Positions 3,550 to 22,789 of a stretch of 64,000 nucleotides of DNA are shown here, piece by piece (position 1 is the first letter of the stretch; every line of letters begins with the position of its first letter). Source of the DNA: Gillisia hiemivivida (GTDB lineage Bacteria; Bacteroidota; Bacteroidia; Flavobacteriales; Flavobacteriaceae); NCBI RefSeq assembly GCF_007997295.1, contig NZ_VORY01000001.1, forward strand, positions 248,001-312,000, in the 5' to 3' direction. The position numbers and the translations under genes were made by a program. The notes beneath the pieces were generated by a model. It was not told the DNA's origin. It made no database searches and saw nothing but the letters and a program-made list of their open reading frames with translations.

Positions 3550-3623
3550 TCCTCCTTAGCTCAGTTGGTTAGAGCATCTGACTGTTAATCAGAGGGTCCT
3601 TGGTTCGAGCCCAAGAGGAGGAG
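3550..3623 (+). tRNA. tRNA-Asn (anticodon GTT)
   Basis: A full 74-nt cloverleaf can be drawn: acceptor TCCTCCT pairs with AGGAGGA, D arm GCTC/GAGC, anticodon stem TCTGA/TCAGA with loop CTGTTAA (anticodon GTT), and T stem CTTGG/CCAAG around TTCGAGC. The discriminator is G and CCA is not encoded. The 3' part from 3598 is the attachment site of the integrative element that follows; the element supplies the same sequence, so the tRNA stays intact. Confidence 0.97.
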
Positions 3624-3624
3624 C
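3598..3624 (+). repeat. attL: left 27-bp attachment repeat at the tRNA-Asn 3' end
   Basis: A 27-bp sequence covering the T arm and 3' acceptor strand of tRNA-Asn is repeated perfectly at 23095-23121 in the same orientation. Bases differ immediately outside both copies. With a tyrosine integrase starting 228 bp away, this is the left end of an integrated element. Confidence 0.95.
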
Positions 3625-6715: not shown

Positions 6716-6750
6716 CTCTCCCATATATTTATATGTATGGGGGATTTTTT
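6716..6750 (+). terminator. Terminator after the 5411-6707 gene pair
   Basis: CTCCCATA (6718-6725, with one T-G pair) pairs with TATGGGGG (6736-6743), followed by ATTTTTT. It ends the putative two-gene unit. Confidence 0.65.
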
Positions 6751-6761
6751 GACTTAAAGAG

Positions 6762-6779
6762 CTAACGTCAACTTGTCAA
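6762..6779 (-). repeat. Element-specific 18-bp repeat, copy A (inverted)
   Basis: On the minus strand this reads TTGACAAGTTGACGTTAG, matching the 18-bp consensus TTGACANNTTGACGTYAR. It lies between the 275-aa gene and the secreted-protein gene at 6841, 61 bp upstream of that start. Confidence 0.7.
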
Positions 6780-6840
6780 GTTTTTTTACAATAATTAATT
6801 GCTTAACCTTTCAAATAAGCTAAAATTTTAATCCATCATT

Positions 6841-7335
6841 ATGAAAAAAATATTATTACTTGGAATTTTATTTCCTTTTATTGCCATTAGTCAAACTGAT
6901 AATAAAATAGAAGGACTAACTATTAATACACCTTGTGAGCTAGAATATACACGTAATTTGGGAAATCAAAATAATTACAGTTGTGTATTACAAAATATTG
7001 ATGAAACAATATTTCAATATTCTGTAACAGTTCAAAACTTATTTGAAGAAATGAATAATTTTCAAGGAAAACAGTTGCAGAGCTTTAAGAATAGCTTTTT
7101 ACAAGCTGCAAAGCAGAATGCTATTTCAAATGGAGAAAGTACGGAATCAATAATCTTAGCAAATGGTCAAAAGGCATTAAAAATTAAATCCTATTTAACC
7201 TACTCAGGAAATAAGTTTAATAATACTTCAATTGTATTCCTTTATAAGCAAAAAAGTTTTATAGTTAATTTAACCACTAATGACTTAAATAGTGTAGAAT
7301 TAAAACAACTTAATAATAGAATAAAAATCAAATAG
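6841..7335 (+). CDS. Hypothetical secreted protein
   Basis: This 164-residue protein has a typical signal peptide (MKKILLLGILFPFIAISQ, cleavage probably after ISQ). The mature part carries two cysteines (CELEYTRNLGNQNNYSC), which could form a disulfide. I do not recognise the family. The body is polar and beta-rich in appearance, with no enzymatic motif. It sits alone between copies A and B of the 18-bp repeat and has its own terminator, so it behaves as an independent cargo unit of the element. Its location is periplasmic or extracellular by inference. Confidence 0.6.
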   Translation: MKKILLLGILFPFIAISQTDNKIEGLTINTPCELEYTRNLGNQNNYSCVLQNIDETIFQYSVTVQNLFEEMNNFQGKQLQSFKNSFLQAAKQNAISNGESTESIILANGQKALKIKSYLTYSGNKFNNTSIVFLYKQKSFIVNLTTNDLNSVELKQLNNRIKIK

Positions 7336-7362
7336 ATTATATTAAAAAATCAGAAATATTAA

Positions 7363-7394
7363 ACCCTCTATTATTTTGTAGAGGGTATTTTTTT
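7363..7394. terminator. Terminator after the secreted-protein gene
   Basis: ACCCTCTA (7363-7370) pairs perfectly with TAGAGGGT (7379-7386), followed by ATTTTTTTT. It lies in a convergent gap. Confidence 0.85.
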
Positions 7395-7404
7395 GACTTT
7401 TAAT

Positions 7405-7422
7405 TTGACATCTTGACGTCAG
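7405..7422 (+). repeat. Element-specific 18-bp repeat, copy B
   Basis: This reads TTGACATCTTGACGTCAG. It lies in the convergent gap between the secreted-protein gene and the PLD gene, so unlike copies A, C and D it is not upstream of any gene. Confidence 0.7.
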
Positions 7423-7544
7423 GTTTTCTATTATAAAATTAGTGATAAAAGTATTTTTTAATGTTGCCACTTTTTCTTTGATGACTAAAATAGGACATTT
7501 CCTCAAATTGTACGCTATTTGCTTCTAATTGATGTTGGCTGAAC

Positions 7545-8561
7545 TTAATTGTACAAATCTAATATGATGCGATCATTTAAAAATGGCATGAAATTATTGG
7601 CCCATATATAATCCTCTTTAATTAAATCAATATTGTCGTTTATTATCTTTTCTAATTCTGATTTAGAAAATGTTTGTTCAAATTTTCTTTTGTAAAATAA
7701 CTTAATAGCAATTTCATTTTTTAAAGCATCATCCGAATATTGATCGTAATCAATGTCAACCTCATGGTAAAGGGAGTATTCATTTAGTATTGAAAGGTTG
7801 AAATTGTTTATCTCATTAGTTTGGAAATTAATTATTGTTTCCTTCTTTACAGGGAGTGAAAATTCTTGAGAAAAGTTAGAATCAATATCTTTCATAGAAA
7901 TTTTATATTTCTTTTGATTCTTCAACTCGTTATGATGAATATATTTTGGGTTAAAAATTAACCCTGGCCGATAATATATTTCATCATATATACCATTGGG
8001 GTAAGTATAGCAAGCTCCAATTTCAATTTTATCTTTTATCTTATTTAAAGTTTTTTTGTTAAAAGGGTAATATGTCGAAATAATTCTATTTGCAAACTCA
8101 AAATTCTCAAATAGTATTTCAATATTTTGGTCTATATAATTGTCAACTGTAAAAAATTTAAATATTCTTGTAAAGTATGATGCAATTTCTTTACTCTCGA
8201 GAATTACTATTGTTTCTTTATTTTTAGATGCTCTTTTGGTATAATTATATGATCCAATTATAATTTTTTGATTATCAATTATTGAAAACTTATTATGGTT
8301 GAAGCCCTTAAATTTTTGTTTCCTAACCTTGATTCCTTCTTTATATAATATTGCTGAAAATCTTTCAAAAAAGTATTTTTCATTTGTGAAATTATCATCT
8401 ACTAAAATCTCTATTTCAATATTTTTATATCTTTTTATATCAATTAGGGAATTAATAATCATTGGACTAGTAAACCAGGCAACAACAATTATAATTGATT
8501 CTTTAGCAGAATCAAATTTATCAATTATTACGTTTTCAATATTTTCAGAAAATGCTAACAT
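7545..8561 (-). CDS. Phospholipase D-like (HKD) nuclease-family protein
   Basis: The 338-residue protein has one PLD-type catalytic motif: H89, K91 and D96 in NHNKFSIID, followed by the conserved IIGSYNYT (G103, S104, N106). PLD proteins with a single HKD usually work as dimers and in bacteria are often endonucleases, including defence nucleases. Residues 1-130 cover the PLD domain; the C-terminal 200 residues are not recognised. It lies alone between repeat copies B and C, downstream of the defence operon and on the same strand but separated by 148 bp. A DNA-cleaving cargo role is inferred from fold and neighbourhood; lipid or RNA hydrolysis cannot be excluded. Confidence 0.78.
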   Translation of the reverse strand: MLAFSENIENVIIDKFDSAKESIIIVVAWFTSPMIINSLIDIKRYKNIEIEILVDDNFTNEKYFFERFSAILYKEGIKVRKQKFKGFNHNKFSIIDNQKIIIGSYNYTKRASKNKETIVILESKEIASYFTRIFKFFTVDNYIDQNIEILFENFEFANRIISTYYPFNKKTLNKIKDKIEIGACYTYPNGIYDEIYYRPGLIFNPKYIHHNELKNQKKYKISMKDIDSNFSQEFSLPVKKETIINFQTNEINNFNLSILNEYSLYHEVDIDYDQYSDDALKNEIAIKLFYKRKFEQTFSKSELEKIINDNIDLIKEDYIWANNFMPFLNDRIILDLYN

Positions 8562-8650
8562 TAAATTGAGGGAATTGTTAAATAGCTACTAATAAAAACA
8601 AAAATTTATCTTTTTAGATAAATATAGGTTATCTATTAATAGATTTGTGC

Positions 8651-8690
8651 TTGACAGGAAAAACTTGACAACTTGACAACTTGACGTCAA
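8651..8690 (+). repeat. Element-specific 18-bp repeat, copy C, with extra TTGACA units
   Basis: The full 18-bp copy TTGACAACTTGACGTCAA is at 8673-8690. Additional TTGACA units begin at 8651 and 8665, giving a short tandem array. It lies between the ATPase stop (8710) and the PLD gene start (8561). Confidence 0.75.
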
Positions 8691-8709
8691 CTTTTAAATA
8701 TTTTTCCTT

Positions 8710-10449
8710 CTAATCAGTTTCAATAAGAAGATCAAAGGTTTCATTTAGATATTCATCAAACTTGCTTTCATGATCGCTAAGAAAAGCTCTTTCAAGTTTA
8801 TTATTACCAATACAAATTAAATTAGCTTTTCCATTAAAGTACTTTGTATTATAATCGTTAACTGAGATTTTATTTTTCTTGGAATCTGCTATGGAAACAA
8901 AGAGTTGTGTATCTGTAGGTTTATATTTACCTATAAACTTGAGTATAATATCTTTACTATCAGCTTCTAAATCTCCTTCGAAAATGGCATCCAACAAAAA
9001 TGGAAACCTGTGAATTCCTTCAGTATCTTTTATTAAATTATTAAATGCGAAATTATAAGCTAGAAGTGTTTTCAATAATTCCACTCCTTGCCGAGGAAAG
9101 GCAGGAATTTCATAGAGTCTTAAAAACCTATGATCGTCAAATTCTTTAACCTTCAGTTCTTTTAAATTCCTCTTGAATAAAGTACGGAAAACTGAACTAT
9201 TTAATTTTCTTTCATCTTCAATTTCATCATCAGTTTTAAATATTTCTAATTTTTTTTCTATTTCCTTTAACTCTATTGTTTTCTCACCGATTTTAGAAGT
9301 TACATTGCTTGAAAATTGAATGTTTACTTTATTCTCGATCCAGGTATTAAGTGATAAATCGTTTAGGTTATAGTTTTCTAAAGTAGCGTAATCTTTGGCA
9401 ATAATCTCCTTATACTTTGCAATATCTCTATTCAGTGAATTGATTTTGCCAGATGTGGTTTTGAGCTTATTTATCACTCGTTTATTCTCTTCAATTTGAT
9501 CCTCTGTATCTAAATAATCTTGATGATATTCATAAATTTTTTCTAAACTTTCAGGTAATTCCTGATGACAAGTTGGACAATCATCTTCGATTGGATCTTG
9601 ATTTTTAAGTGCCTTTCTCACTCTAAAAAGAACATTTTTTCTATTTTCAAGCAATGCTAGCTTATTGTGGGTTATGAGATAATCTTTTTCTAATACAATA
9701 AGAGCTTCTTTATTTTCTTTGTAAATCTTCAAATAATCTAAAGACTTAGTTACATATTTTTCATCTTTAAGTTTTGACAACTTAATTTCAAGATCTTGGC
9801 TTTCAATATTGGTTAGAAATTCAATTTCATTTTTAAGTTTTTCTTTAGCTTTATCTAATTCATTTTTTTGGTTTCTATCGTAGTCGTTTACAATTCCTAA
9901 GTAGTAATCAAAAAAGTCTCTTTTGAAATTTTTGATAAAATCTAGTCCTCTAAAAGATTTATGACGATAAACCCATCCCACATCCTGAGCGATATAATAT
10001 GGAAGAAACATAGCTTCGATTGGTGCCTGTTGATACTTCCCAGAACTCTCCAAATGGAGATTAAAATCAAATATTTCTCCTAAATAATGTTTTAAAGATT
10101 TATGTTCTTCGGATCTATTACCGCTAATTCCAATAAATTTCTTCCTGGGTTTATTTTCTCTTGAAATTATAATGGTCTCATCTTCTCTTACTATAGTAAT
10201 ATTTTCAGCTGTATTTGAATGTAGTATGATATCAATTCTGAATATCACATTCTCCTTTAATAGATCCGAAAGTTTTCCTTTCTCGTCATTAATTCCGAAG
10301 GTGTAAAGCAAAGCATGAATTAAAGTACTTTTTCCAGAAGTGTTCTTTCCATAAATTATGTTGCTTCCATTTATGAATTCTGTATAAAAAGATTTATGTT
10401 TTTCTTCTGAATAAGCGAAAAATCTTTTAAACTCTAATTTATTGTTCAT
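8710..10449 (-). CDS. Rad50/SMC-like ABC ATPase (Lamassu LmuB / ABC-3C type)
   Basis: This is a 579-residue ATPase. Walker A is GKNTSGKS at residues 35-42. Coiled-coil regions run at roughly 195-280 and 300-410, with a zinc-hook-like CPTC at 291-294 between them. The ATPase fold resumes near 440, with a Walker B-like FPFLLD (D487) followed by AIFEGDLEAD. A canonical LSGGQ signature is absent; the equivalent place reads PRQGVELLKTLLAYNF. Its start overlaps the end of the upstream nuclease gene by 11 bp, so the products are probably made together. SMC-like ATPases paired with DUF4297-type nucleases form Lamassu defence systems, where the ATPase senses foreign DNA ends or plasmids. That assignment is inferred from architecture. 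Confidence 0.75.
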   Translation of the reverse strand: MNNKLEFKRFFAYSEEKHKSFYTEFINGSNIIYGKNTSGKSTLIHALLYTFGINDEKGKLSDLLKENVIFRIDIILHSNTAENITIVREDETIIISRENKPRKKFIGISGNRSEEHKSLKHYLGEIFDFNLHLESSGKYQQAPIEAMFLPYYIAQDVGWVYRHKSFRGLDFIKNFKRDFFDYYLGIVNDYDRNQKNELDKAKEKLKNEIEFLTNIESQDLEIKLSKLKDEKYVTKSLDYLKIYKENKEALIVLEKDYLITHNKLALLENRKNVLFRVRKALKNQDPIEDDCPTCHQELPESLEKIYEYHQDYLDTEDQIEENKRVINKLKTTSGKINSLNRDIAKYKEIIAKDYATLENYNLNDLSLNTWIENKVNIQFSSNVTSKIGEKTIELKEIEKKLEIFKTDDEIEDERKLNSSVFRTLFKRNLKELKVKEFDDHRFLRLYEIPAFPRQGVELLKTLLAYNFAFNNLIKDTEGIHRFPFLLDAIFEGDLEADSKDIILKFIGKYKPTDTQLFVSIADSKKNKISVNDYNTKYFNGKANLICIGNNKLERAFLSDHESKFDEYLNETFDLLIETD

Positions 10450-11536
10450 TATTCTTTTGTTTATGAATTGCTTCGAAATATGCAGCGTAAATAGTTGCCT
10501 TCAGATTAAGATCATCAAAAGGAATAGACGTCTCAGATCTTATCATATCAAACAATTCCTTTACATTTTCTTCTTCTTGCGTTGTAATACATTTGAGATA
10601 ATTTTCTTTCACAAATTTTAAAACTCTTTGATGTTGGACTTGTTCCAAACTTTTGAACAAGTCGAATGCTGATTCAAAACTCATCTTAAATTGATCCCTT
10701 TCAAAGGGTTTAATGTTTAAAATCCGTGAAATAGATTTTGATTCATCTCTCCAAAAGTCAAATGCCTTAGATTGTGTAGTTATCAGACTGAAAACTTTAT
10801 TAATATCATCACTATGAACCCTTTTTGATTTATCTAATAGTTTCGCAGTGTTACCTTGGTTGTAAATTGTTTCAATGTTTCTAAATAGATGTAAAATTGT
10901 TATTAGGGCAGCTCTTGGATTAGAAACTGAATCTTCAAAAACTTCTTCTATCTTTCCTATCAGCTGATTTTGTTGTTCTTTGTCTGTACGAGTGAGAACA
11001 ATATAATGAAAATGTAAATTATGTAATTCACCTTCCAACTCTGTTGTAAAATTACCACTAAGATCTTCTTTAAGTTTAGATCTAATTTTATCTTTTAACT
11101 TGTCATCAAGGCTCTTATAAGCAACAGAAAGACTCTCCTCATCAATCGAAATATTAATCGCTCCTTCCTTTAATTTAATGGAGGAATTTGATGAAAAAAA
11201 TAAACAGTGGGAATAATCTTCAGATTTGGGAATAGAGTCATTTATTAGATTTACTCCCGTGCTTAAAAGCTTCCCAATAATAGCAGACATTTCTTGGTTT
11301 ATTGTCCACTTATCAGGTGACTTTTTCTTGGATTGGTAAGCCTCAATGTAAGCCACATCTTCTTTGTCATCAAGGAAAACGAAAAGAAAATCATCGTGGT
11401 GTTCCAAGCATATAAAAAATTTTTCATCTCTAAATTTAGAATGGTAGTTTTCCATTAAAAGATACAAGGCTGAATTTCGTTGTAGTGCAAAGCCATTTTC
11501 GGCTCTTGGTCCTGCATTGAGAGATGGATCTTTCAA
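10439..11536 (-). CDS. DUF4297/Cap4-like DNA nuclease (Lamassu LmuA-like)
   Basis: The 365-residue protein begins with a restriction-like nuclease domain. GFALQRNSALYLLMENY is followed by LEHHDDFLFVF (E45, D48/D49) and YIEAYQSKKK (Q68, K70), the E-D-QxK arrangement seen in dsDNA nucleases of the DUF4297 family (Cap4, LmuA). The remaining 270 residues are helical and not recognised; no SAVED sensor domain is evident. It is 13 bp downstream of the Type ISP enzyme and overlaps the SMC-like ATPase by 11 bp, so all three are one operon. I infer that it is the DNA-degrading effector controlled by the ATPase. Catalysis is plausible since the motif residues are present. Confidence 0.68.
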   Translation of the reverse strand: MKDPSLNAGPRAENGFALQRNSALYLLMENYHSKFRDEKFFICLEHHDDFLFVFLDDKEDVAYIEAYQSKKKSPDKWTINQEMSAIIGKLLSTGVNLINDSIPKSEDYSHCLFFSSNSSIKLKEGAINISIDEESLSVAYKSLDDKLKDKIRSKLKEDLSGNFTTELEGELHNLHFHYIVLTRTDKEQQNQLIGKIEEVFEDSVSNPRAALITILHLFRNIETIYNQGNTAKLLDKSKRVHSDDINKVFSLITTQSKAFDFWRDESKSISRILNIKPFERDQFKMSFESAFDLFKSLEQVQHQRVLKFVKENYLKCITTQEEENVKELFDMIRSETSIPFDDLNLKATIYAAYFEAIHKQKNNEQ

Positions 11537-11549
11537 AGTCTGGTGATTT

Positions 11550-14500
11550 TTAGTTAGAGTTAAGTGTTTCTATTTTGCTTTCTTCTTCCACTTCTTCTTC
11601 CTCAAACTTCAATGCTGGTAACGCATTAACAATATCCACAGTTTGCACACTTACATTAATAACACTTAAAATAAGATCAAGTATATATCTTGGATTTTCT
11701 ACCTCTTTGCTCCAGTCATTAGGATCATTTTTAATTCCAGACTTTTTATCAATTTTTACTTGATATCTATCCATTATCCAATCTATTGCACTTTTACCAT
11801 TTACAATATAATCATAAGCCTTCTCTGGAATATTACTAATCTTAATTCTGCTATTGTAGAGAATAGTTCCTTTTTGGTCTTTTTTAGGAAAACGTAGTTT
11901 AGTTACTTTATACAATTCATAATCATCTATTTGTAATTGGTCTTTTGGCATTTCCACTTCTAGACCTTGGTATGGTTCCACATCCTCATAATTGATGTGC
12001 AAATCTGCTAATTGGCGACCAGCTTTACTAAATGACCAAAAATCTTTTGGTTTATCTACCAAGGGGATACGAGGTAGCATTTTTTTAAGATCGTTAGAAA
12101 AGGTTTCTTTATAATCTTGACTATGTAAAATCCCATATACATAATAGAAAATATCCGCTTTTTCTACTGATTTTCCATATTGTTTAATAGCACGCTCTAA
12201 AATAAAATCACTTACTCCATCTCTACGAATGTATTTAGACTCACTTGATGCATCAAATAAACTGCCCTGTACTTGTTCTTTTTCTTCGTAATAATATAAT
12301 GGGAAACATTGTGTACCAGCATCTAAACAATTCAAATCTGTTATGGTATTGCTCATTATTGCCGTATTTGTTTTATTACCGCCTATACCTGAAACACAAA
12401 TTGTTAAGTTTTCAATATTTGACTCTGGGAAAAGTTTTAAATTTTGATATAACATTGCGTTCAAGTCTTTTTCAAAATATAAATTAGACTTTACATAAGG
12501 TCTATACTGACCTTGATAAACCCGATTTTGATTAAATGTATGTTTATATGTTTTTTTTAAGTCATTTTTCAGATTCCTATTCCAGCTGATTTTTTTTAAA
12601 TTAGTAACTATATAGTCCTCATAATTAGTTTTGTTATTTGATTTTTGTGAAAACACAAATTCATCTACTACGCTGTTGTAATGATTAATATGCTTTTTGA
12701 TTTGTTTTCCTAAATTTAAATATGAGAAATTATAAACCCAAACATCGCGTCCTGTAGCTAGCCCTAAAGAATAATTAACAAAGTAAGATTTTGAGGATGA
12801 ATCCATTTTCTTCTCTGGTGCAATTTCTATAAACTCTTCAAACGATTCATTTCTTTGATTAACCCAATCTCCTTGTTCATTTGGTATTAACTCTTTCCAT
12901 TTTATATTATTTATTGATTTATAATCTGAAACTATTTTTAATTTTTCTTCTCTATTCAAATAATCACCAATATCGTGATAGTAGATTTTCGCCTTTTTAG
13001 CGCTATGAGGATTTTTAATTAATAAGGTTATTGAAATAGGCGTACGTGACCCAGATCCAAATATTTTACCTCCTTCTTTACGAGATAACTCACCAGAGGT
13101 ACGTTGATTACCTCTTAAATTAAATATGTAAATAGACGAGAACTCTTTCTCTAATGATTTACGAAAACCATCGGTACTATTTCCATCTAACCAAGTTCCA
13201 TTACTAATAAATGCTATTATTCCTCCATTTATAGGATCTAATCTATCGGTACTCCACCTAAATGCTTTTAAATAAGAATCATAAACAGCATTGCTGTTTG
13301 TCGCTTCTGATAGAGCTACATAAGTTTTTGCGATTTTATTATCTAAAAATGTGTAGGATTGATTTTGAGCATTATCATTAGAAGATTTTTGACCTTTTGA
13401 ATAAGGCGGATTTCCAATAATTACTCTTAACGGAGCTTTTTGCTGTGCTTGTACCCGTTTTGAATTTTGAGGAAACATTTCTGAAAACAATTTTTCACTC
13501 TCATTGGTTTCACCTAATTGAAAAGTGTCTGTTAATACAATACCATCAAAAGGTGTGTATTCAGTCTCCTCTTGTTCTATTTGATCGTGGTAAGCATTTT
13601 CAATATTTACAGCTGCAATGTAATAGGCTAATAATACAATTTCATTAGCGTGCAATTCTTGGGTATACTTTCTTTTGAGGTCTTCCTTCTTTATTAACCC
13701 ACTTTGTAATAAACGTGTAATAAAGGTACCTGTTCCAGTAAATGGATCAAGAATGTGAACATTTTCATCTGAAATTGAGCGATCAAATTCCTTTTGTAAT
13801 ACATCGTTAACTGAGTGAATAATAAAATCTACAACTTCTACAGGGGTATATACAATTCCCAGTTGTTCCACCATTTTTGGGAAAGCTGTTTTAAAGAATT
13901 TATCGTATAGCTCTATAATAATACGTTGTTTTCCTTCTGCATTATCTATTCCTTCTGCACGTTTCTTAACAGATTGGTAGAATTTATCTAGCGTTTCTGT
14001 GTCTTTATCTAAAGATTGATCTTCTAATACATCCAGCATGGATTGCATAGATGTGGAGATAGCATTATTTTTTACAAAAGAATATCCATCGAATAATGCT
14101 TCAAATACTGGTTTGGTAATAATATGCTGTGATAGCATATCAATTGCTTGTTCTTTTGAAATCGAAGGATTTATGTTTTTTCTTAGACCTGTTAGAAACT
14201 TTTCAAATGCTTCTTCATGCTCAGGAGAATTTTCTATAAGTACTCTAATTCGTGCGACTTGATTCTCAGCAATTTTTGCTACATCTTTCGCCCATTTTTC
14301 CCAATAAACTCTGTCACCAACTTTTTGAACCATTTTAGCATAAACGATAGATTGCAATTGTTCAAATTGTATAGCTAATTGGTCATTAACATCGCCATAT
14401 TTTTCATTTGGTTCATTAACAACATTCCCATCTACATCTAACCTAGGAACTCCACCAATTAATATATTGTTAGGTTTCTTTTTGTTTAAATCGATCTTAT

Positions 14501-16469
14501 TTACTGTAGCATTAAATCTATCATCATGAGCACGTAATGCATTTAGAACAGACCAAACAACTCTAAATCTATCGTTATCATCTAATGCTTTTGAAGGTTC
14601 TACATCTGATGGTACAACTACAGGAATAATAATATAACCATATTTCTTTCCTGGAGCTTTACGCATTACTCTTCCAACAGATTGAACTACATCTACCTGA
14701 GAATTACGTGCGGAGAGGAATAATACAGCATCTAATGATGGTACATCTACGCCTTCACTTAAACAGCGTACATTGGTTAAAACCCTGCATTCATTGGAAT
14801 CTGCAGATTGTGATTTTAGCCAACCTAATAATTGATCACGTTGAGGAGCGTTCATACTTCCATCTATATGATTTGATGAAACACGTACTAACTTCTCCCT
14901 TTGCTTTGGAGCAACAGAATCTAAATAAACATCTGAAGTATCATTAAATGTGCTAGTTATTTTTTTTGAAATCTTAATATTTTGGCAGAATGCGACTGCC
15001 CTTTTCATTGGTTCCGGATCACTATCTTTTATTAACCCATTGTCGCCTAGCACCTGTTTAGATAATGCATTTAAGCATCCAATTAATTTAGAAGCATCAT
15101 CAGAGTTAATTTCATTTTCTGAATTAGACACCATTTTTTGAACTGCTGGTGGTATATCATTTTCACTTAATGTTAGAACCAAAACCTTATAATCAGCTAA
15201 TAAACCTCTCTCTACAGCTTCGCCAAAACCAATACGATACATCTCCTCACCGTATTTTTCAGGATCATCCATTGAACAAATGGTAGCGTCATTCTGATCT
15301 GCTTTGGATTTAGAATCATCACTAAATAGACGAGGAGTAGCAGTCATGTAAATCCTCTTATTAGCTTGCAAGAATTCATTATCATGGACTTTAACAAATG
15401 AAGATTCATCATTGCCAGCTAATGTAACTCCTGTAGTTCTGTGAGCTTCATCACATATGATTAAGTCAAAAATAGCATTGTTATTCTTTTCGTTTAATAA
15501 ATGACGTTGGGCATTAGCAATTACATCTATAGATTGATATGTTGAAAAGACAACTGTCATTCCTTTTTTTGATGTTCTATCTATGCCTTTAAATTGCTTT
15601 ATTACGCTCTTTACATCTGTAGAAGCAGGAAAAGCTAAATCTACTACACTAAAATCATCGTCATCATTATTACCACTTTGTCTGGTAATCCTAGAATCTG
15701 AACAAATACAAATAGGTTTAATAGGTTCATTAGCGTCGGAAGACCATTCACGTAGTGTTTGTCCTAATAATGCGATAGATGGAACTAAAAACAACACTAA
15801 GCCACTATTATTTGTTTCATTTTCTGCAATACGCAAGGAAGTAAAAGTTTTACCCGTACCACAAGCCATTATTAATTTTCCTCTATCATTTTCTAAAAAA
15901 TGATCATGAGTTTTATTAAGAGCATCCGTTTGATGTTGCCTTAAAATCTTCTTAGTAGTTCTTGCTAGATCACCTGTAATACCTTTTTCAAGTGTTCCCC
16001 AGTCAACTGGAGCTTGTTCTAAATCTGTAAGATTAATTCTTGTAACTGGGGGATTTTGGTTTCTTATTGTTTCTTCGGCATTACTACTCCAATTATTAGT
16101 AGTAGAAACCCAAATTCTTTTTTCAAACCCAATAGTTTGTAACTGGTCATTTTTAAAATGCCTGCTTGATGTGGAAAGAAAAGAATCTACTTCTGCTTTA
16201 TCAATTCGCCCAGTCTCTTTATAGCACTTGCATTGTATAGCCCAATAATCACCATCTATAGTTAAGGCAACTAAATCTATCCCTGTGTCCTTTCCTCCAA
16301 AATCTTTCTTTCCAGGGAACTCATTCCACATCCAAACATATTTTAAGGTATTTGAGTATGTGGGATCTGTTTGCAGATATGCTTGAATTAAACGTTCAAA
16401 CCTATCACCTTTATCTCGCTCTGAAAATGAAAATTCACGATACTTATCTAGTACTTTTTGGAAGGACAT
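11550..16469 (-). CDS. Type ISP-like single-polypeptide restriction-modification enzyme
   Basis: This 1639-residue protein fuses all parts of an R-M system. An N-terminal Mrr-like PD-(D/E)XK nuclease has D65 and QCKC (Q79, K81). An SF2 helicase follows, with Walker A ACGTGKT at 202-208 and DEAH at 340-343. After a helical coupler comes an N6-adenine methyltransferase with motif I DPFTGTGTF near 910 and motif IV NPPYS near 1018. A C-terminal target-recognition region follows. This order and size match LlaGI/LlaBIII-type Type ISP enzymes, which translocate on DNA and cut after head-on meeting. The frame is intact over 4.9 kb. It leads the operon with the nuclease/ATPase pair. Its target sequence cannot be predicted. 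Confidence 0.9.
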   Translation of the reverse strand: MSFQKVLDKYREFSFSERDKGDRFERLIQAYLQTDPTYSNTLKYVWMWNEFPGKKDFGGKDTGIDLVALTIDGDYWAIQCKCYKETGRIDKAEVDSFLSTSSRHFKNDQLQTIGFEKRIWVSTTNNWSSNAEETIRNQNPPVTRINLTDLEQAPVDWGTLEKGITGDLARTTKKILRQHQTDALNKTHDHFLENDRGKLIMACGTGKTFTSLRIAENETNNSGLVLFLVPSIALLGQTLREWSSDANEPIKPICICSDSRITRQSGNNDDDDFSVVDLAFPASTDVKSVIKQFKGIDRTSKKGMTVVFSTYQSIDVIANAQRHLLNEKNNNAIFDLIICDEAHRTTGVTLAGNDESSFVKVHDNEFLQANKRIYMTATPRLFSDDSKSKADQNDATICSMDDPEKYGEEMYRIGFGEAVERGLLADYKVLVLTLSENDIPPAVQKMVSNSENEINSDDASKLIGCLNALSKQVLGDNGLIKDSDPEPMKRAVAFCQNIKISKKITSTFNDTSDVYLDSVAPKQREKLVRVSSNHIDGSMNAPQRDQLLGWLKSQSADSNECRVLTNVRCLSEGVDVPSLDAVLFLSARNSQVDVVQSVGRVMRKAPGKKYGYIIIPVVVPSDVEPSKALDDNDRFRVVWSVLNALRAHDDRFNATVNKIDLNKKKPNNILIGGVPRLDVDGNVVNEPNEKYGDVNDQLAIQFEQLQSIVYAKMVQKVGDRVYWEKWAKDVAKIAENQVARIRVLIENSPEHEEAFEKFLTGLRKNINPSISKEQAIDMLSQHIITKPVFEALFDGYSFVKNNAISTSMQSMLDVLEDQSLDKDTETLDKFYQSVKKRAEGIDNAEGKQRIIIELYDKFFKTAFPKMVEQLGIVYTPVEVVDFIIHSVNDVLQKEFDRSISDENVHILDPFTGTGTFITRLLQSGLIKKEDLKRKYTQELHANEIVLLAYYIAAVNIENAYHDQIEQEETEYTPFDGIVLTDTFQLGETNESEKLFSEMFPQNSKRVQAQQKAPLRVIIGNPPYSKGQKSSNDNAQNQSYTFLDNKIAKTYVALSEATNSNAVYDSYLKAFRWSTDRLDPINGGIIAFISNGTWLDGNSTDGFRKSLEKEFSSIYIFNLRGNQRTSGELSRKEGGKIFGSGSRTPISITLLIKNPHSAKKAKIYYHDIGDYLNREEKLKIVSDYKSINNIKWKELIPNEQGDWVNQRNESFEEFIEIAPEKKMDSSSKSYFVNYSLGLATGRDVWVYNFSYLNLGKQIKKHINHYNSVVDEFVFSQKSNNKTNYEDYIVTNLKKISWNRNLKNDLKKTYKHTFNQNRVYQGQYRPYVKSNLYFEKDLNAMLYQNLKLFPESNIENLTICVSGIGGNKTNTAIMSNTITDLNCLDAGTQCFPLYYYEEKEQVQGSLFDASSESKYIRRDGVSDFILERAIKQYGKSVEKADIFYYVYGILHSQDYKETFSNDLKKMLPRIPLVDKPKDFWSFSKAGRQLADLHINYEDVEPYQGLEVEMPKDQLQIDDYELYKVTKLRFPKKDQKGTILYNSRIKISNIPEKAYDYIVNGKSAIDWIMDRYQVKIDKKSGIKNDPNDWSKEVENPRYILDLILSVINVSVQTVDIVNALPALKFEEEEVEEESKIETLNSN

Positions 16470-16610
16470 TTATTGTTGGGTGTTTATTAATTATATGAAG
16501 GAATTACAGAGTAGTAGGGGAGAATGAATTCCATATACAATTTTAACGCTTCTTTTTGTCTTATCCAATCTCTCCTGTTAAAATAGAGTGAAAGAAATCA
16601 ACAATAAAAG

Positions 16611-16628
16611 TTGACAATTTGACGTCAA
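16611..16628 (+). repeat. Element-specific 18-bp repeat, copy D
   Basis: This reads TTGACAATTTGACGTCAA. It lies 142 bp upstream of the Type ISP gene start, in the same orientation relative to the gene as copies A and C have to theirs. Confidence 0.75.
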
Positions 16629-16694
16629 GTTTAAATTGAAAATTTTGTTCCTAAATTTTTTATAAAATTTTTATGGAAGATTTCAGTGAGAATG

Positions 16695-16880: not shown

Positions 16881-16899
16881 AATTTAAATCGATAAAACC

Positions 16900-17244
16900 A
16901 TGGTTACGATTATCAATTACAAGTCTTATGAAAAAGAAGACGGAGGGAACTTTAATGCATTAATTGTACAAGGTGGATTGGAGACTGTTAAAAGTAAAGA
17001 AACAGGACAAATCTATTTTACAGCAAAAACAGCTCAAGTATCAAGCACATTTGATGAAGCTACTTGTAAGTCATTAGTAGGAACAAGCATCCCAGGAACT
17101 ATTAAAAAGGTACAAGTTGATCCCTACGAGTACACAAATACAAAAACTGGGGAAATTACCACATACTCAGAGAGAAATGTATTTGTAACTCCAGAAGAAG
17201 AAATCCTTGAAAGTAATGTTGAGGAAGAAAGAATGGTAATCTAA
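16900..17244 (+). CDS. Conserved hypothetical protein of Bacteroidota mobile elements
   Basis: The 114-residue acidic protein begins MVTIINYKSYEKEDGGNFNALIVQGGLE and contains SKETGQIYFTAKTA and a PYEYTNTKTGEITTYSERNVFV segment. I recall similar small proteins upstream of recombination or replication genes in Bacteroidota phages and plasmids, but I know no assigned function. The beta-rich pattern with paired aromatic residues could fit an OB-type nucleic-acid-binding fold; this is speculation. It is the first gene of the element's replication/recombination module and has its own terminator, 119 bp before the Sak4-like ATPase. Confidence 0.65.
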   Translation: MVTIINYKSYEKEDGGNFNALIVQGGLETVKSKETGQIYFTAKTAQVSSTFDEATCKSLVGTSIPGTIKKVQVDPYEYTNTKTGEITTYSERNVFVTPEEEILESNVEEERMVI

Positions 17245-17270
17245 CTCTTCAGTTTAAAGTTAAAATATAA

Positions 17271-17302
17271 GAAGAGCTTCCAATTAGGAGGCTCTTTTTT
17301 AT
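17271..17302 (+). terminator. Terminator after the 114-aa gene
   Basis: AAGAGC pairs with GCTCTT around a short, partly paired TTCCAATTAGGAG segment, followed by TTTTTT. Confidence 0.65.
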
Positions 17303-17363
17303 TGTCTAATCCCGTCATGTAGATTTAATAATAATCTTGATGACAACTAATAATTAATATTTT

Positions 17364-18230
17364 ATGAAACTACAACAAGCACAGCGAAGCCAAGTGAAAT
17401 TAAGAATTGGCTTAAGCGGACCAAGTGGCTATGGCAAGACATATTCTGCCCTTTTATTAGCATTTGGAATTACTAACGATTGGAGTAAAATAGCAGTAAT
17501 AGATACTGAAAATAATTCCGCATCATTATACTCTCATCTAGGCGATTTTAACGTGTTAAGTCTAGAAGAACCTTATTCACCACAAAGATATGTTGAAGCT
17601 CTTAAAACCTGCGAAATGGCTGATATGGAGGTTATTATTGTGGACTCTATATCTCACGAATGGCAGGGTAAAGGTGGTTGCCTAGAGATGCACGAAAAGC
17701 TTGGAGGGAGATTCCAAGATTGGGCAAAAATCACTCCTTATCATAATTCATTTGTAGATGGGATATTACAATCTAAATGTCACGTGATCACATCAACCCG
17801 CAGAAAAGTGGATTATTCCTTAGATAGGGATATGAATGGTAAAACTAAGGTTATGAAGCTGGGTACAAAAGAGATAACAAGAGAGGGTTTTGAATATGAA
17901 CTCACTGTCAATTTTGAGCTTATTAATGATAACCATCTAGTAAAAGCTTCAAAGGATAGAACTGGATTATTTATGAATAAGCCAGAGTTTATAATTAATC
18001 AATCTACTGGAAAGAAGCTTAAAGAGTGGTGTACAGATGGAGTTTCAATAGAAAAGATTAAGAAAGAAATTTCACTATGCCACCATCTTGCAGGGCTCAA
18101 ACATATTTATGATAAATATTCTTCCGTACAGAAGGAAATATACCCGTTAATAATTGAACGTAAGAACCTTATTGAGGATAGCAATTCGCAGTTAATTGAA
18201 GAAAATAATGTAGAACAACCAAAAAATTAA
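17364..18230 (+). CDS. Sak4-like RecA-fold AAA ATPase (phage-type recombination protein)
   Basis: The 288-residue ATPase has Walker A GPSGYGKT (residues 19-26), a following strand KIAVIDTEN, and Walker B VIIVD (90-94) within VIIVDSISHEW. The pattern matches the AAA_24/Sak4 family, RecA-like ATPases encoded by phages and mobile elements that act with single-strand binding or annealing proteins. Later it shows HVITSTRRKVDYS and a KASKDRTGLF segment typical of this group. It is followed after 4 bp by the DUF3871 gene, so they are co-expressed. The likely role is recombination or replication support for the mobile element, in the cytosol. Confidence 0.83.
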   Translation: MKLQQAQRSQVKLRIGLSGPSGYGKTYSALLLAFGITNDWSKIAVIDTENNSASLYSHLGDFNVLSLEEPYSPQRYVEALKTCEMADMEVIIVDSISHEWQGKGGCLEMHEKLGGRFQDWAKITPYHNSFVDGILQSKCHVITSTRRKVDYSLDRDMNGKTKVMKLGTKEITREGFEYELTVNFELINDNHLVKASKDRTGLFMNKPEFIINQSTGKKLKEWCTDGVSIEKIKKEISLCHHLAGLKHIYDKYSSVQKEIYPLIIERKNLIEDSNSQLIEENNVEQPKN

Positions 18231-18234
18231 AATT

Positions 18235-19218
18235 ATGGAAATAATAGAAAGATCCCTTATACAAAATCAAATGGTGGAAGAGAGGGAAGTGGTAACATCC
18301 ACAAATCGAAGTTTTATTGAAGCCAATACGACCCAAGTAAATTTATCTCATCTAAAAAATGAATGTATAATTCCAGTTTTTTCCAAGGACAATGAGAGTA
18401 CGATTAGTCACTACGAATTTGTACATAAAACCAGACAGGTAGTGAAAGACCTATTTCCAGAATTTAATGTAGCTGAGCCAAATATTAGGACATCACATAT
18501 GATTAAAGGGAGAATTCCATCTGCTATAGGTAAGCCTGCAAAAGATCTTAAGGATTTTGAGAAAACATTGTACTATGAACGTTGTGCTTTCATTATAGAA
18601 ATTCCTGAGGTTACTGAGATTGTAAATGGAAATGCATTAGCCCTTAGCGTGGGTGGCGTACGTGCCTATAATCAGGAAAACTTGTATAGCAAGAAAAGTC
18701 CTGAAAAGTTCAAATTATTTGTTGGGTTTAAAAACATGGTGTGTACCAACTTGTGCATATCAACAGATGGTTTGGCAGATCAGGTTAGAGTTACTTCTGT
18801 TAACCAACTATCTGAAGCAGTTGAGGGATTGTTAAGGGCATATAATCGTGAGGATCATTTAAGTGTGATGAAAAGAATGGCTGATTATAATCTTACTGAA
18901 TCTCAATTCGCCCATTTAATTGGGAAATTAAGAATGTACCAGTTTATGGATAAATACGATCAACAGCAGCATTTCTCTATTTCGCTAAATGACAGTCAGA
19001 TAAACACCGTAGTGAAAAACTATTATCAATGCCCTAATTTTAAATGTAAAGGGGATGGCACAATTAATCTGTGGAAGCTTTACAATCTTTTTACGGAAGC
19101 CAACAAATCCTCCTACATAGATAATAATTTTGAACGCAATGTTCACGCGTACGACTTAATCAATCACCTAGTGAATTCACTACATAGTGGAAGTCCTAAT
19201 TGGTTCTTGCAACATTAA
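18235..19218 (+). CDS. DUF3871 family protein
   Basis: The 327-residue protein matches the DUF3871 family as I remember it: IRTSHMIKGRIPSAIGKPAKDL, YERCAFIIEIP, LALSVGGVRAYNQENLY and FKLFVGFKNMVCTNLC. Proteins of this family occur in Bacteroidota phages and mobile elements, commonly beside an AAA ATPase, and resemble phage DUF932-type proteins; the function is unknown. Here it starts 4 bp after the Sak4-like ATPase. Conserved cysteines (NMVCTNLCIS, YQCPNFKCKG) are visible and could bind metal or be structural. A role in replication or recombination of the element is inferred from context only. Confidence 0.75.
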   Translation: MEIIERSLIQNQMVEEREVVTSTNRSFIEANTTQVNLSHLKNECIIPVFSKDNESTISHYEFVHKTRQVVKDLFPEFNVAEPNIRTSHMIKGRIPSAIGKPAKDLKDFEKTLYYERCAFIIEIPEVTEIVNGNALALSVGGVRAYNQENLYSKKSPEKFKLFVGFKNMVCTNLCISTDGLADQVRVTSVNQLSEAVEGLLRAYNREDHLSVMKRMADYNLTESQFAHLIGKLRMYQFMDKYDQQQHFSISLNDSQINTVVKNYYQCPNFKCKGDGTINLWKLYNLFTEANKSSYIDNNFERNVHAYDLINHLVNSLHSGSPNWFLQH

Positions 19219-19236
19219 TTATATAGCGTTTATGCA

Positions 19237-19485
19237 ATGAGCGATGAAGAATTAATAGAAACATTAAAGTATAGCTCTCCTAAAATTTTATACATAGTTA
19301 CTTGGAATAATCTTCTTAAAAAACTCTTCTGTCCTTTTCAGGTGATGGTAAAACATCAAATTGGGGAACTTGAAAAAGGGGAGAAGATTTGGGTAGAAAA
19401 TGTAAAAGTTACAGTCAAATTAAAAACTGTTTATATAATTAAAGGGAGAGCTTATTATTATGATCATTTTGAAATTTTAAATTAA
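19237..19485 (+). CDS. Small hypothetical protein
   Basis: This is an 82-residue protein starting MSDEELIETLKYSSPKILYIVTWNNLL. The second half (LEKGEKIWVENVKVTVKLKTVYIIKGRAYYYDHFEIL) looks like a small beta-barrel or SH3-like domain ending in a typical YYYDHFEI strand. No family is recognised. It follows the DUF3871 gene by 18 bp on the same strand, so it probably belongs to the same transcript in the replication module. Confidence 0.55.
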   Translation: MSDEELIETLKYSSPKILYIVTWNNLLKKLFCPFQVMVKHQIGELEKGEKIWVENVKVTVKLKTVYIIKGRAYYYDHFEILN

Positions 19486-19672
19486 AGTAAAGATTGAAAA
19501 TTCCTCATATTATTAGTAAGGGGTAGGAGTTAAGCTGTATTTTGGATAACCAAGCTTTTGAGACTGTTTCTCCTTTATCAAAAAACTCCTGAAAAAGAAA
19601 TCTGGATTATTATATTTGCTGGCACAGCATCAATATTGTTGCTGTGTTGGTTAATATTTAATTTAGAGTTAC

Positions 19673-20536
19673 ATGAAATCCTTAGAGCTAATTGATGAAA
19701 TAGAAGATGTTTTTTCAGAATCCTTTTTTTTAGTGATTAAAGATAGATTTTGGTATAGTTATACTATAATATTTAATTCTCCAAAGGAATGGGACGGTAG
19801 GAGCAGATATTCTATAAGTTTAACGCCGAGCTTTGAATCTGATATAAATAAATTTGATTTAAATGAAGATTTACAGAATGAAATTTCTGATAAATTCGAG
19901 AGATTAAGAATTACACTCCATGAAGATTTAATCCAGTTAGATAATGAAAGGAAGGAGAACCGTTTTGTGATGCTCATAAATAAGAGATTATCTAAAGCAT
20001 CTGATAACGCTGCAAATTTTAATACTCCCAAACCCTTTGAAACGGTCATAAAAACTCAATTCCATAAATGTTTATTAGACTTTCAAAAAGAGTTTATCAG
20101 TGAAAAAGATAATAAAAAGTCAAGAATCAATTATGGGATTCAATTCCTAAATATGGAAAGTCCTTCAGGATGGAGTAGTTTTAATGAATTTTGTAAAGCT
20201 TTAAGAAAAAGTTCCTTAATTCCATCAGAAACTAATAAAATGGATCTTAAGATTGTTTTTTCAAAAGGTATAATATCAAAAAAGATAATATGGTTGGGCT
20301 CTCATCCCGAAGCTGATCATTTTTTTAAAGGTTTAAAAGAGAAGAAACATTTAATAAAAATTAACCCCATCTGGCTATCTGTAAACCAAAATTTCGCAAT
20401 ATTAGATAAAGAAGGCATCCCTATGCCAAGTGATAAGCTAAACTCACTTGGAGTATTAGATAAAAAGATACTATCGGATAAAGATTCTATGCGAGAGATC
20501 AATAGTATAATTGACTTATTAGAAACCGAGAAGTAA
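19673..20536 (+). CDS. Hypothetical protein of the replication module
   Basis: I do not recognise this 287-residue protein with certainty. It is mainly helical, rich in charged residues, and has no signal peptide or membrane helix. The C-terminal part contains KIIWLGSHPEADHFFKGLKEKKHLIKI, which recalls the WxGs..el..L...L...L. pattern in a variety of Bacteroidota mobile-element proteins, followed by NQNFAILDKEG. A 7-bp inverted repeat (CACAGCA/TGCTGTG, 19623-19646) lies just before its start. It sits between the Sak4/DUF3871 genes and the primase-helicase, so a role in element replication or regulation is reasonable but unproven. Confidence 0.55.
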   Translation: MKSLELIDEIEDVFSESFFLVIKDRFWYSYTIIFNSPKEWDGRSRYSISLTPSFESDINKFDLNEDLQNEISDKFERLRITLHEDLIQLDNERKENRFVMLINKRLSKASDNAANFNTPKPFETVIKTQFHKCLLDFQKEFISEKDNKKSRINYGIQFLNMESPSGWSSFNEFCKALRKSSLIPSETNKMDLKIVFSKGIISKKIIWLGSHPEADHFFKGLKEKKHLIKINPIWLSVNQNFAILDKEGIPMPSDKLNSLGVLDKKILSDKDSMREINSIIDLLETEK

Positions 20537-20724
20537 TCTGCATTTATCTGCTTCCCATTATAAAATTTTTAATTGGTAACCAGTTTAAGTGGTTGTATTC
20601 TAGTTATTTGTATTAGCGTATTATCTGTTTCTAATTAAAACTTTCCATTTACAGATAAATTTCTTATAAATATTTGTTCTCAGAAAGCGGCGAAATTTCT
20701 CTGCTAATTAAAAATTTGAAACAA

Positions 20725-22134
20725 ATGACTAAAGAAGTTATCGAAGAACCTATATCATTTTATTTACGTGATGATAATGGTGCAATTAAAATTATACAAG
20801 CCAAACTTATTGATTTTTTAGAATTGAATGGGTTTTTAAATGTCCGCATGGGGGATGAGGTTATGCTCGTTAGAAATGATAGGAACATTTTATATCGTAT
20901 AAAGATTTTAGATTTGGTCGCATTTATTCGAAATACTCTAGATAACGAAGCTAATAGAGAGATATATGATGTTTTCGCAAGAAGCCCTGGTACTTACATA
21001 GGTGTAAATAAACTTCAGTTATTAAAGTCAATAGAGATTATTGATGATCTAGATGAATTAAATTCTTCAAAATTTTATTTTCAAAATTGCGTATGTGAGG
21101 TTTACTCAGATAGAATAGAGGTTATTGAAAATGAAAATTTAGAAAAACCTATATGGCAGAATAGGATATTACAAATAGAATATAACCCTCCTTCTCTAGA
21201 TGTTGTTGGACAATTTGAAACTTTTTGTAAAAGAATTACTGGAGGTAAAGATCAAAGGTTTCAAGCATTGAAATGTCTTATAGGTTATTTGTTGCATCGC
21301 AATAAAGAGAAAGGAGAACAAAAGGCGGTTATTTTGTATGATGAAAAAATGGGTGTTGGAGACAAAGCCAATGGAAGAACTGGAAAAACTGTTATCGCCA
21401 CAGCATTAAGTAAATGTCGAGAAGTGGAACTTTTTGATGGTAAGAGCATGAAAAATGAAAGCTATTTCAAGAATCAACGCATAAATCTTACTACCGACCT
21501 TTTGGTATACGATGATATTTCTAAAAATTTAAAATTCGATATTTTTTATTCTATTCTAACTACTGGAGTGGAAGTAGAAAAAAAAGGAAAACAATCATTC
21601 TATATTCCTGATTCAAAATCTCCTAAGCTGTTAATTACCTCTAATTATTATGTAAATGGGGATGGGGGTGACTCTGATTTAGGAAGACGATATGAATTTG
21701 AAATAGCAAACCACTATAGTAAAAAACTCAAACCTGAACATGAATTTGGAAATAGATTTTTTGGCAATTTTTGGCCTATGGAGGAATGGAATAAATTTTA
21801 TTTTTTTATGTCTACATGTGTACAAGATTATTTGGCTAATGGTTTAATAGATTTACCATCCTTAAATTTGCAAATTTCAAAAATAACGGACAATACAAGT
21901 TCTGATTTTGTGGAATTTGCAGAGGTATATATTAAGAAAGATTTTAAGTTTGATAAGCGACATTTTCTGTCTGATTTTATCTCCTTATATCCCAAATATC
22001 AAGATTTGTCTCCTCATCAATTTACTAAATGGTTACAACTTTATGCAGATCATCTGAACTGCAGCTACGAAGATAAATCTTCAGGTGGGGAATATTATTT
22101 TTGGATTCATTCTAAAGCAGATAGTAATGAATAG
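20725..22134 (+). CDS. Primase-helicase-type protein with SF3-like ATPase
   Basis: The C-terminal half is an SF3/DUF5906-like helicase. Walker A is GRTGKT (residues 217-222), preceded by KMGVGDKAN. Walker B-like LLVYDDIS and a sensor region PKLLITSNYYVNGDGGDSDLGRRYEFE follow. The N-terminal 200 residues are not clearly a primase. I use the ATG at 20725 (469 aa); the longer frame begins at a TTG 17 codons earlier with an unlike sequence. This helicase is probably the replication initiator or helicase of the integrative element. Its stop overlaps the start of the next gene by 8 bp. Satellite and IME elements commonly carry such a protein. Confidence 0.82.
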   Translation: MTKEVIEEPISFYLRDDNGAIKIIQAKLIDFLELNGFLNVRMGDEVMLVRNDRNILYRIKILDLVAFIRNTLDNEANREIYDVFARSPGTYIGVNKLQLLKSIEIIDDLDELNSSKFYFQNCVCEVYSDRIEVIENENLEKPIWQNRILQIEYNPPSLDVVGQFETFCKRITGGKDQRFQALKCLIGYLLHRNKEKGEQKAVILYDEKMGVGDKANGRTGKTVIATALSKCREVELFDGKSMKNESYFKNQRINLTTDLLVYDDISKNLKFDIFYSILTTGVEVEKKGKQSFYIPDSKSPKLLITSNYYVNGDGGDSDLGRRYEFEIANHYSKKLKPEHEFGNRFFGNFWPMEEWNKFYFFMSTCVQDYLANGLIDLPSLNLQISKITDNTSSDFVEFAEVYIKKDFKFDKRHFLSDFISLYPKYQDLSPHQFTKWLQLYADHLNCSYEDKSSGGEYYFWIHSKADSNE

Positions 22135-22789
22135 ATTAGGAAAAATATATAAAGCAATCAATAAAATCACAAAAGAAGTTTATATAGGTGTGACCTTTAA
22201 TCTTTTGAAAGATAGACGAAACGACCATCTACAAAAAGCTAAAAAAAATGTCGGTGGAAAATTTCAGCAAGCTATTAGAACCTATGGATCTGAAGCATTT
22301 GAATGGGTGCAGATAGATACAGCAAATTCAAGTAACGAATTAGCAGAAAAAGAAAAGGAATATGTGATAAAATATAATGCTAAAGAAAATGGTTACAATG
22401 CAGATAGTGGAGGAGGTTTTAAAAAGACTATTTTTAAGTATAATCTAGAAACTAAGGAGTTAATTCAAGATTATACTTGTTTAAATAGTGCAGCCATTTC
22501 GGTTAATGCAACTAAACAGGATATTTCCAGAGCATGTTTAAGCGCCAATGGCTTATTAAATGGATACCTATGGAGTTACAGTTGTTCTAAGGTATTTACT
22601 TCCAATGGTGATTCTAGGAAAAAAGGAGTAATTCAGTTGGATTTAAATGCCAATATAATTGATGAATTTGATTCAGTTGCAGAAGCTACTCAAAAAACAG
22701 GATTGAGTAAAACTTGTATTTCAAGAGTATGCCGAGGAGAAAGAGATTCTTCAGGAGGATATATATGGAGATACACCAATCAATTATGA
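22127..22789 (+). CDS. GIY-YIG endonuclease with NUMOD-type DNA-binding repeats
   Basis: The 220-residue protein starts with a GIY-YIG nuclease domain: GKIYKAINKITKEVYIGVTF (KIY in place of GIY at residues 6-8, YIG at 19-21), then RRNDH and an EKEKEYVIKYNAKENGYN segment with the metal-binding Glu. Two C-terminal NUMOD1-like modules follow (IFKYNLETKELIQDYTCLNSAA and VIQLDLNANIIDEFDSVAEATQKTG), each with a helix-turn-helix-like tail. This is the layout of phage homing endonucleases. Start chosen at 22127: the frame opens 14 codons earlier inside the primase gene, but the GIY domain begins here, with an 8-bp overlap. It may be a selfish gene attached to the helicase gene. Confidence 0.88.
   Translation: MNRLGKIYKAINKITKEVYIGVTFNLLKDRRNDHLQKAKKNVGGKFQQAIRTYGSEAFEWVQIDTANSSNELAEKEKEYVIKYNAKENGYNADSGGGFKKTIFKYNLETKELIQDYTCLNSAAISVNATKQDISRACLSANGLLNGYLWSYSCSKVFTSNGDSRKKGVIQLDLNANIIDEFDSVAEATQKTGLSKTCISRVCRGERDSSGGYIWRYTNQL

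Follow-up and report, generated by a model that had tools for sequence, protein, structure and literature searches.

Short conserved boundary or linker sequences are found at the module borders of phages and other mosaic mobile genomes, and the cassette array of an integron consists of independent units, most of which have a site close to their 3' end, with distinct border types at the ends. Defence hotspots in satellites, integrative and conjugative elements and Tn7-like transposons hold variable defence cargo between conserved ends, and we know of no repeated internal border sequence between the individual systems there. Sites of the pdif type have two arms around a short spacer. On Acinetobacter plasmids, pdif sites are described in the summaries of two reports as separating gene modules (PMC6449649; PMC12907356). 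The subject here is a repeated sequence in a 19.5-kb mobile element of Gillisia hiemivivida, contained in a 64-kb stretch of contig NZ_VORY01000001.1 (positions 248,001 to 312,000, hereafter the window). The element is integrated at tRNA-Asn and bounded by 27-bp direct repeats. The joints between defence units in this element and its relatives carry a shared border sequence, and this border site, as judged from sequence comparison, probably marks where whole defence blocks are swapped.

The border site resembles the sites of pdif/dif modules in being a short two-arm site around a short spacer that separates unrelated adaptive modules. Unlike those, the modules here are anti-phage systems in a tRNA-integrated element. 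The arms of the site are presumably also unlike the E. coli-type dif arms; a dif pattern search in eight genomes gave 79-124 matches in each, all below the reversed-pattern control, and did not locate the host dif site. The features that integron arrays share with this locus are those named above, but here each unit is an entire operon, the site is a palindrome of 24 bp in duplex form, and no integron integrase was identified beside the array, the integrase present having Arm-DNA-bind_5, Phage_int_SAM_5 and Phage_integrase domains. A phage-type annealing protein is present, as with phage linkers, but here a single sequence with palindromic conservation serves most joints of an element and recurs in five elements. 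Variable defence cargo between conserved ends is as in the hotspots. At the level of titles and the beginnings of abstracts, no paper on this element or border site was apparent among those listed.

We hold with moderate confidence that the repeat is the border sequence of a cassette array in a tRNA-integrated element, and that defence units are joined and exchanged at or next to the site. The original prediction was built on an 18-mer, TTGACANNTTGACGTYAR, and exact search confirmed its four copies, A at 6762-6779 (minus strand) and B, C and D at 7405-7422, 8673-8690 and 16611-16628 (plus strand), with no fifth exact copy anywhere in the window. As it had also proposed, consecutive copies enclose, by annotation, a secreted protein, a PLD nuclease and a three-gene operon; the last consists of Lamassu (LmuB, E 8.9e-215; LmuA, E 8.5e-120) and a type ISP restriction-modification enzyme. 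Copy B does lie in a convergent gap, between the secreted-protein and PLD genes, and the extra TTGACA units noticed at copy C are present. The order in the window is 275-aa gene, A, secreted protein, B, PLD, C, LmuB-LmuA-ISP, D, core, with the following features:

3598..3624, plus strand: attL, 3' end of tRNA-Asn, 27-bp direct repeat
6717..6744, plus strand: terminator hairpin directly before site A (from the terminator scan)
6759..6782, minus strand: border site A, between the 275-aa gene and the secreted-protein gene; inverted, 18-mer exact, 3 of 16 arm bases differing
6841..7335, plus strand: unit 1, secreted 164-aa protein
7363..7386, plus strand: terminator hairpin belonging to the left-border type, in which a terminator, TTTTGAC and a short T-rich spacer precede the site
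7402..7425, plus strand: border site B, in the convergent gap between secreted protein and PLD
7545..8561, minus strand: unit 2, PLD-like nuclease
8670..8693, plus strand: border site C, of the internal type (C..C), lying some 20 bp past the LmuB stop; extra TTGACA at 8651 and 8665
8710..16469, minus strand: unit 3, LmuB-LmuA-type ISP restriction-modification enzyme (LmuB 8710-10449, LmuA 10439-11536, type ISP enzyme 11550-16469, all minus strand)
16608..16631, plus strand: border site D, of the right-border type (G..G), separating the type ISP enzyme from the replication core
16900..22789, plus strand: conserved core right of the array, encoding 114-aa, AAA_24/Sak4-like, DUF3871, 82-aa, 287-aa, DUF5906-like and GIY-YIG/NUMOD proteins
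23095..23121, plus strand: attR, second copy of the 27-bp repeat

The 18-mer is rare. At up to three mismatches the window holds seven matches, a number reached by 2 of 100 shuffles (shuffle mean 2.21); the three that are not exact have two or three mismatches, two overlapping B and C on the opposite strand and one lying inside lmuB (9774). The whole 3.73-Mb genome contains no other exact copy, and elsewhere in it there is one copy with one mismatch and one with two. The repeat is therefore not abundant on the host chromosome, a check that the cassette idea survives. Among 397 genomes of the family, exact copies are found in the window genome and, singly, in one other (G323).

When 16 Gillisia genomes, including that of the window, were searched at up to one mismatch, nine gave matches to the 18-mer. 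These were clustered only in the window genome, Gillisia mitskevichiae DSM 19839 (G401) and Gillisia sp. LH_M84 (G409), the same three of the 16 genomes that have the DUF3871 gene at E 1e-40; the remaining matches were single or far apart and no commoner than the reversed control. Scanning the genome_contigs collection for exact copies of TTGACANNTTGACGTCAA returned 53 stretches, of which five lie in site-bearing elements: G. mitskevichiae (two), LH_M84, Salegentibacter sp. 24 and Christiangramia echinicola. The other 48 (up to 8 kb each) gave one tblastn match to an element protein, 31% identical over 106 aa. No further site cluster was found at up to three mismatches in 15 genomes of the genus of Salegentibacter sp. 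24 or in 24 of that of C. echinicola, where single matches were at or below control. The genome G406 has one 1-mismatch copy (L124/L125), of which the motif only was inspected. In viral contigs, 26 stretches carried the 18-mer and gave no tblastn match to element proteins, 11 carried the arm pattern described below and were checked for motif and G+C only, and of the stretches found by viral protein search (L226-L230) the four checked, L227 being left out, lacked the arm pattern.

The site is known from five elements, those of the window, the two other Gillisia, Salegentibacter and Christiangramia. The search of related elements that had been recommended placed the repeat at cargo borders: 14 sites were counted, all at unit borders by our own division, in which systems fused in one operon count as one unit, and one further match is intragenic. 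In G. mitskevichiae the order is integrase, site a, an SpbK-like TIR protein with 1577-aa and 235-aa proteins, b, a type I restriction operon that includes two HEC-06/Orf5-model proteins and a WYL protein, c, a 61-aa open reading frame (ORF), core; sites b and c are in direct orientation to each other. LH_M84 has core, a, LmuB-LmuA-ISP followed by UDG-like and Mrr-like proteins, b, a 192-aa protein, core. The Salegentibacter element reads core, Pycsar with CapP, a (a variant), type III restriction followed by a UDG-like protein, b, a 67-aa ORF, core. That of Christiangramia reads core with secreted protein, b, short Argonaute with a TIR-domain partner (a pair that we take to be SPARTA-like), c, HEC-06/Orf5-like and type ISP proteins, d, core. 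The TIR protein of G. mitskevichiae and its two neighbours, at L120 15243-16193 and on into L121 to 1792, are possibly a new defence unit; the 1577-aa protein (1269 aa of which were searched) and the 235-aa protein gave no PADLOC match.

Alignment of 13 sites, with Salegentibacter site SAL_a left out, shows that the conserved object is wider than the 18-mer and palindromic. Its 24-bp core, AASTTGAC-N8-GTCAASTT, has two inverted arms of 8 bp each and, between them, a spacer of 8 bp that in most cases repeats the arm a third time. The left AA-S-TTGACA and the right A-C-GTCA...S-T are invariant or almost so, and central positions 7-10 vary. The pattern is matched without mismatch by eight sites (C, D, 401a, LH_a, LH_b, SAL_b, CHR_b and CHR_c, prefixes denoting the element), with one mismatch by 401b, 401c and CHR_d, with two by B and with three by A. 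Site A rests on the 18-mer, since the shuffled window element gives a mean of 0.9 matches at three mismatches. Across the 397 family genomes, exact matches to the arm pattern are limited to C, D and one place in each of two other genomes, one resembling a terminator and the other intragenic.

In profiles built with one element left out at a time, 13 of the 14 sites score 20.7-39.1 bits and other places at most 14.4, save one intragenic place at 24.0; the true sites rank above all else in three elements (window, G. mitskevichiae and LH_M84). An all-against-all intergenic BLAST recovered several TTGAC-site pairs among the matches listed. A blind scan for intergenic repeats was scored for 34 of 45 elements (four skipped by length, seven without anchor gene; 20 shuffles each), and the best score exceeded the shuffle maximum in the window (20 against 19), G. 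mitskevichiae (31 against 17) and LH_M84 (25 against 15).

Sequence flanking the sites was compared for all 91 pairs of the 14 sites, within-element pairs included, using 300-bp flanks from 12 bp outside the core; a flank was taken as shared if its local score was more than 1.25 times the best of 60 shuffles and z was above 6. Two pairs shared the left flank only, three the right only, one both and 85 neither. For WIN_C and LH_a the right flank scores 310 (shuffle maximum 30; LmuB) and the left 19, and for WIN_B and CHR_b the left flank scores 151 (shuffle maximum 32; secreted-protein gene) and the right 18. The alignments of both pairs stop at the site. The secreted protein of Christiangramia, left of CHR_b, is 67% identical to that of the window. 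Weaker one-sided pairs are SAL_b/CHR_d (right, 45; shuffle maximum 26), WIN_D/SAL_b (right, 33; 25) and WIN_D/401_c (left, 39; 27), while WIN_D and CHR_d share both flanks because the type ISP gene and the core are common to both. Since five pairs share one flank only, two of them strongly, the sites coincide with mosaic breakpoints there, and we infer that the border site may be the cause of this mosaicism.

The bases beside the arms divide the sites into border types, which were recognised post hoc and recur across genera (right G..G five times, internal C..C four times). G flanks both arms in the right-border sites (D, 401c, LH_b, SAL_b and CHR_d), C does so in the internal sites (C, 401b, CHR_c and SAL_a), and the left-border sites B, 401a and CHR_b are preceded by a terminator, TTTTGAC and a T-rich spacer of 7-8 bases. 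A and B lie directly behind their terminator hairpins. It could be argued that the sites are themselves bidirectional terminators or insulators, made up of an A-run, a weak stem and a T-run at the 3' ends of units. For 12 of the 14, an ORF in the same relative orientation ends at the site or no more than about 170 bp before it (the 61- and 67-aa ORFs account for two of these cases). Nine of the 14 were folded as RNA, with z ranging from +0.2 to -4.7, and the unrelated genome G364 has AAGTTGAC-N8-GTCAACTT and then a T-run behind a gene. These nine folds are weak to moderate, with two good ones (LH_a, -12.1 kcal/mol; SAL_b, -13.5 kcal/mol). The letters beside the arms are, however, equal in 10 of the 13 aligned sites, which breaks the stem, and complementary G/C in two, and this weakens the terminator view. 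A scan of the window element found the hairpins beside A and B but no intrinsic terminator, meaning a G+C-rich stem with a T-run, at its four sites. To our knowledge terminators of unrelated operons normally share no sequence, which also counts against this explanation, and we give it little credence.

The original prediction had offered operators as the alternative to cassettes, with copies A, C and D upstream of a gene in the same orientation. That observation stands and extends to eight of the 14 sites, which lie at most about 210 bp upstream of such a gene (A, C, D, 401b, 401c, LH_b, CHR_c and CHR_d). One regulator, XRE or another protein encoded by element or host, would then control all cargo operons jointly from these sites. 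The inverted arms suit a dimeric regulator, and the sequence from site to first gene is similar in WIN_D and CHR_d and, more weakly, in WIN_D and 401_c. The operator idea is nevertheless weakened, because the other six sites lie in convergent gaps with no adjacent gene start, the type ISP operon of LH_M84 is homologous to that of the window and has no site upstream, a separate conserved palindrome belongs to xre, and in G. mitskevichiae the element carries sites without xre. This palindrome, TAGGCATATTTGCCTA, lies at window 5367-5382 upstream of xre, is also found in Christiangramia, Salegentibacter and L065-L067 (six elements), and is the probable XRE operator. The 60-kb G. mitskevichiae stretch has neither TAGGCATATTTGCCTA nor a match to xre (best E 1.3), and L065-L067 carry xre (81% identity) and no site; the LH_M84 contig, which starts inside the element, does not bear on xre. 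We consider joint control from the sites improbable, and two of its forms were rejected: an XRE-bound operator, given the separate palindrome and the presence of sites without xre in G. mitskevichiae, and a regulon of a host transcription factor, there being no other exact copy in 3.73 Mb and, over 107 kb of host flanks, no place of at least 16 bits by the full profile. The type ISP genes and, in the G. mitskevichiae type I operon, the WYL gene have similar leaders, around TACAATTTTAAC (window 16470-16600; L121 about 17700-17810; L123 about 8850-8960).

The idea of exchangeable cassettes has been borne out for the position of sites at cargo borders in related elements, but that recombination takes place at the site is something we infer. 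Whole defence systems and other cargo units would be joined at the site, and cassettes would be exchanged between elements by recombination at or beside it. The palindromic arms and variable centre suggest a dimeric protein, as at the crossover site of a tyrosine recombinase or the site of an endonuclease, and a putative protein of this kind would recognise the arms. In a variant without a dedicated enzyme, the Sak4-like protein of the element would anneal short sites. The integrase is an unlikely user of the site, since the elements that carry the site encode integrases of two types, about 45% identical to each other, and are inserted at tRNA-Asn or tRNA-Asp. The att or arm sites of the integrase were rejected as an explanation on the same ground, and also because the att core is the 27-bp tRNA repeat; beside attL, repeats of the TGGGTTCC type were read by eye. 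The GIY-YIG protein, which all four site-bearing elements with a covered right end possess, but which was not detected in L065-L067 and occurs in many site-less elements, was rejected as the cutter for want of correlation with the sites. Its gene (window 22130-22789) sits at the end of many such elements.

The sites could also be mere short homologies for the Sak4-like annealing protein, without specific recognition, which we regard as rather unlikely. The core gene at 17364-18230 matches AAA_24 and, weakly, the Sak4-like phrog_124 (E 0.0003), and Rad52-like phage recombinases have been linked to relaxed homologous recombination, according to the summary of one report (PMC3945230). The palindromic conservation around a variable centre points instead to recognition by a protein. 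DUF3871 was found at E 1e-20 in 42 of the 397 family genomes, and 40 of its 48 places were taken as stretches of 12.6-19.9 kb each. All 40 have the same Sak4-like core gene, but none has the full site and one, L069, has a variant. The 18-mer is absent from these stretches at zero mismatches and found at one mismatch in L069 only; the full profile gives four places of at least 16 bits in their 778 kb, the best being L069 at 26.8.

Several points weigh against the array of exchangeable cassettes. The full site is limited to five elements of three genera, and 14 of 21 borders carry it while seven do not. Part of its invariance is built in, most sites having been found by the motif itself, and for the same reason the 85 pairs without shared flanks are partly to be expected. 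SAL_a scores 14.0 bits in the leave-one-out profile, not separated from background, and it was picked from a 5-mismatch list because it is at a border, the list having other matches that are not. The blind scan did not exceed the shuffles in Salegentibacter (16 against 17) or Christiangramia (16 against 23). In the latter a strong match, uncounted, lies inside the DUF5906-like gene at about 33447 (oriented, L190/L191; 24.0 bits leave-one-out, 22.5 in the full profile), and it outranks site b in the leave-one-out profile. Site A has the opposite orientation, no annotated gene ends ahead of D or CHR_d, and a weak RNA hairpin can form from the arms. The sites show no correlation with any recombinase, L065-L067 have one of the two integrase types and yet no sites, and no near-identical pair of elements differing by one clean cassette gain or loss was found.

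Other lineages may have border-like sequences of their own. In genus g115 an unrelated 20-bp border sequence, AATGCTTTTCTCTGGATTTT, to which the blind-scan result for L077 led (25 against a shuffle maximum of 18), is present in four copies in three elements of the same family, each in a gap between unlike genes, at 9940 and 11075 of L077 (oriented), 9862 of L080 and C1:1249578 of G453. It is found nowhere else in five genomes at up to two mismatches, and lies within a longer segment ending in AGCATTAA. The first L077 copy and that of G453 have the same right-hand gene (94%) and different left-hand neighbours. In L069, of another genus, a site-like cluster at 15590-15640, its arms about 20 bp apart, follows a hairpin and separates DUF3871 from an additional 248-aa gene. 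The g115 and L069 sequences suggest that border sequences, differing by lineage, may be a habit of this element family, though copies are few. The blind scan also exceeded its shuffle maximum in L065 (18 against 16), L071 (20 against 19), L072 (25 against 21, low complexity) and L082 (19 against 17), and equalled it in L087 (20 against 20).

Two further observations concern the core. The sequence at window 16700-16890, upstream of the 114-aa gene, is GC-richer, looks alike by eye in LH_M84, Salegentibacter and Christiangramia, and may be a leader RNA or an origin. The 15.5-kb Bacteroides finegoldii plasmid NZ_OY725960.1 encodes a DUF3871 protein that is 41% identical.

The gain and shuffling of defence systems as whole units have usually been inferred from hotspots without a known joint, and here the joint may be visible. 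Tentatively, the tRNA-integrated elements of Flavobacteriaceae could have a cassette-exchange system in which a candidate dedicated recombinase or endonuclease swaps complete defence systems at lineage-specific palindromic borders, with separate types for the left, the interior and the right. Should the site function in recombination, it would offer a direct assay for the exchange of defence cassettes and a means of finding cassette ends, and would bring forward new defence candidates, among them the secreted protein, the PLD unit and the two proteins of 1577 and 235 aa next to the SpbK-like TIR protein.

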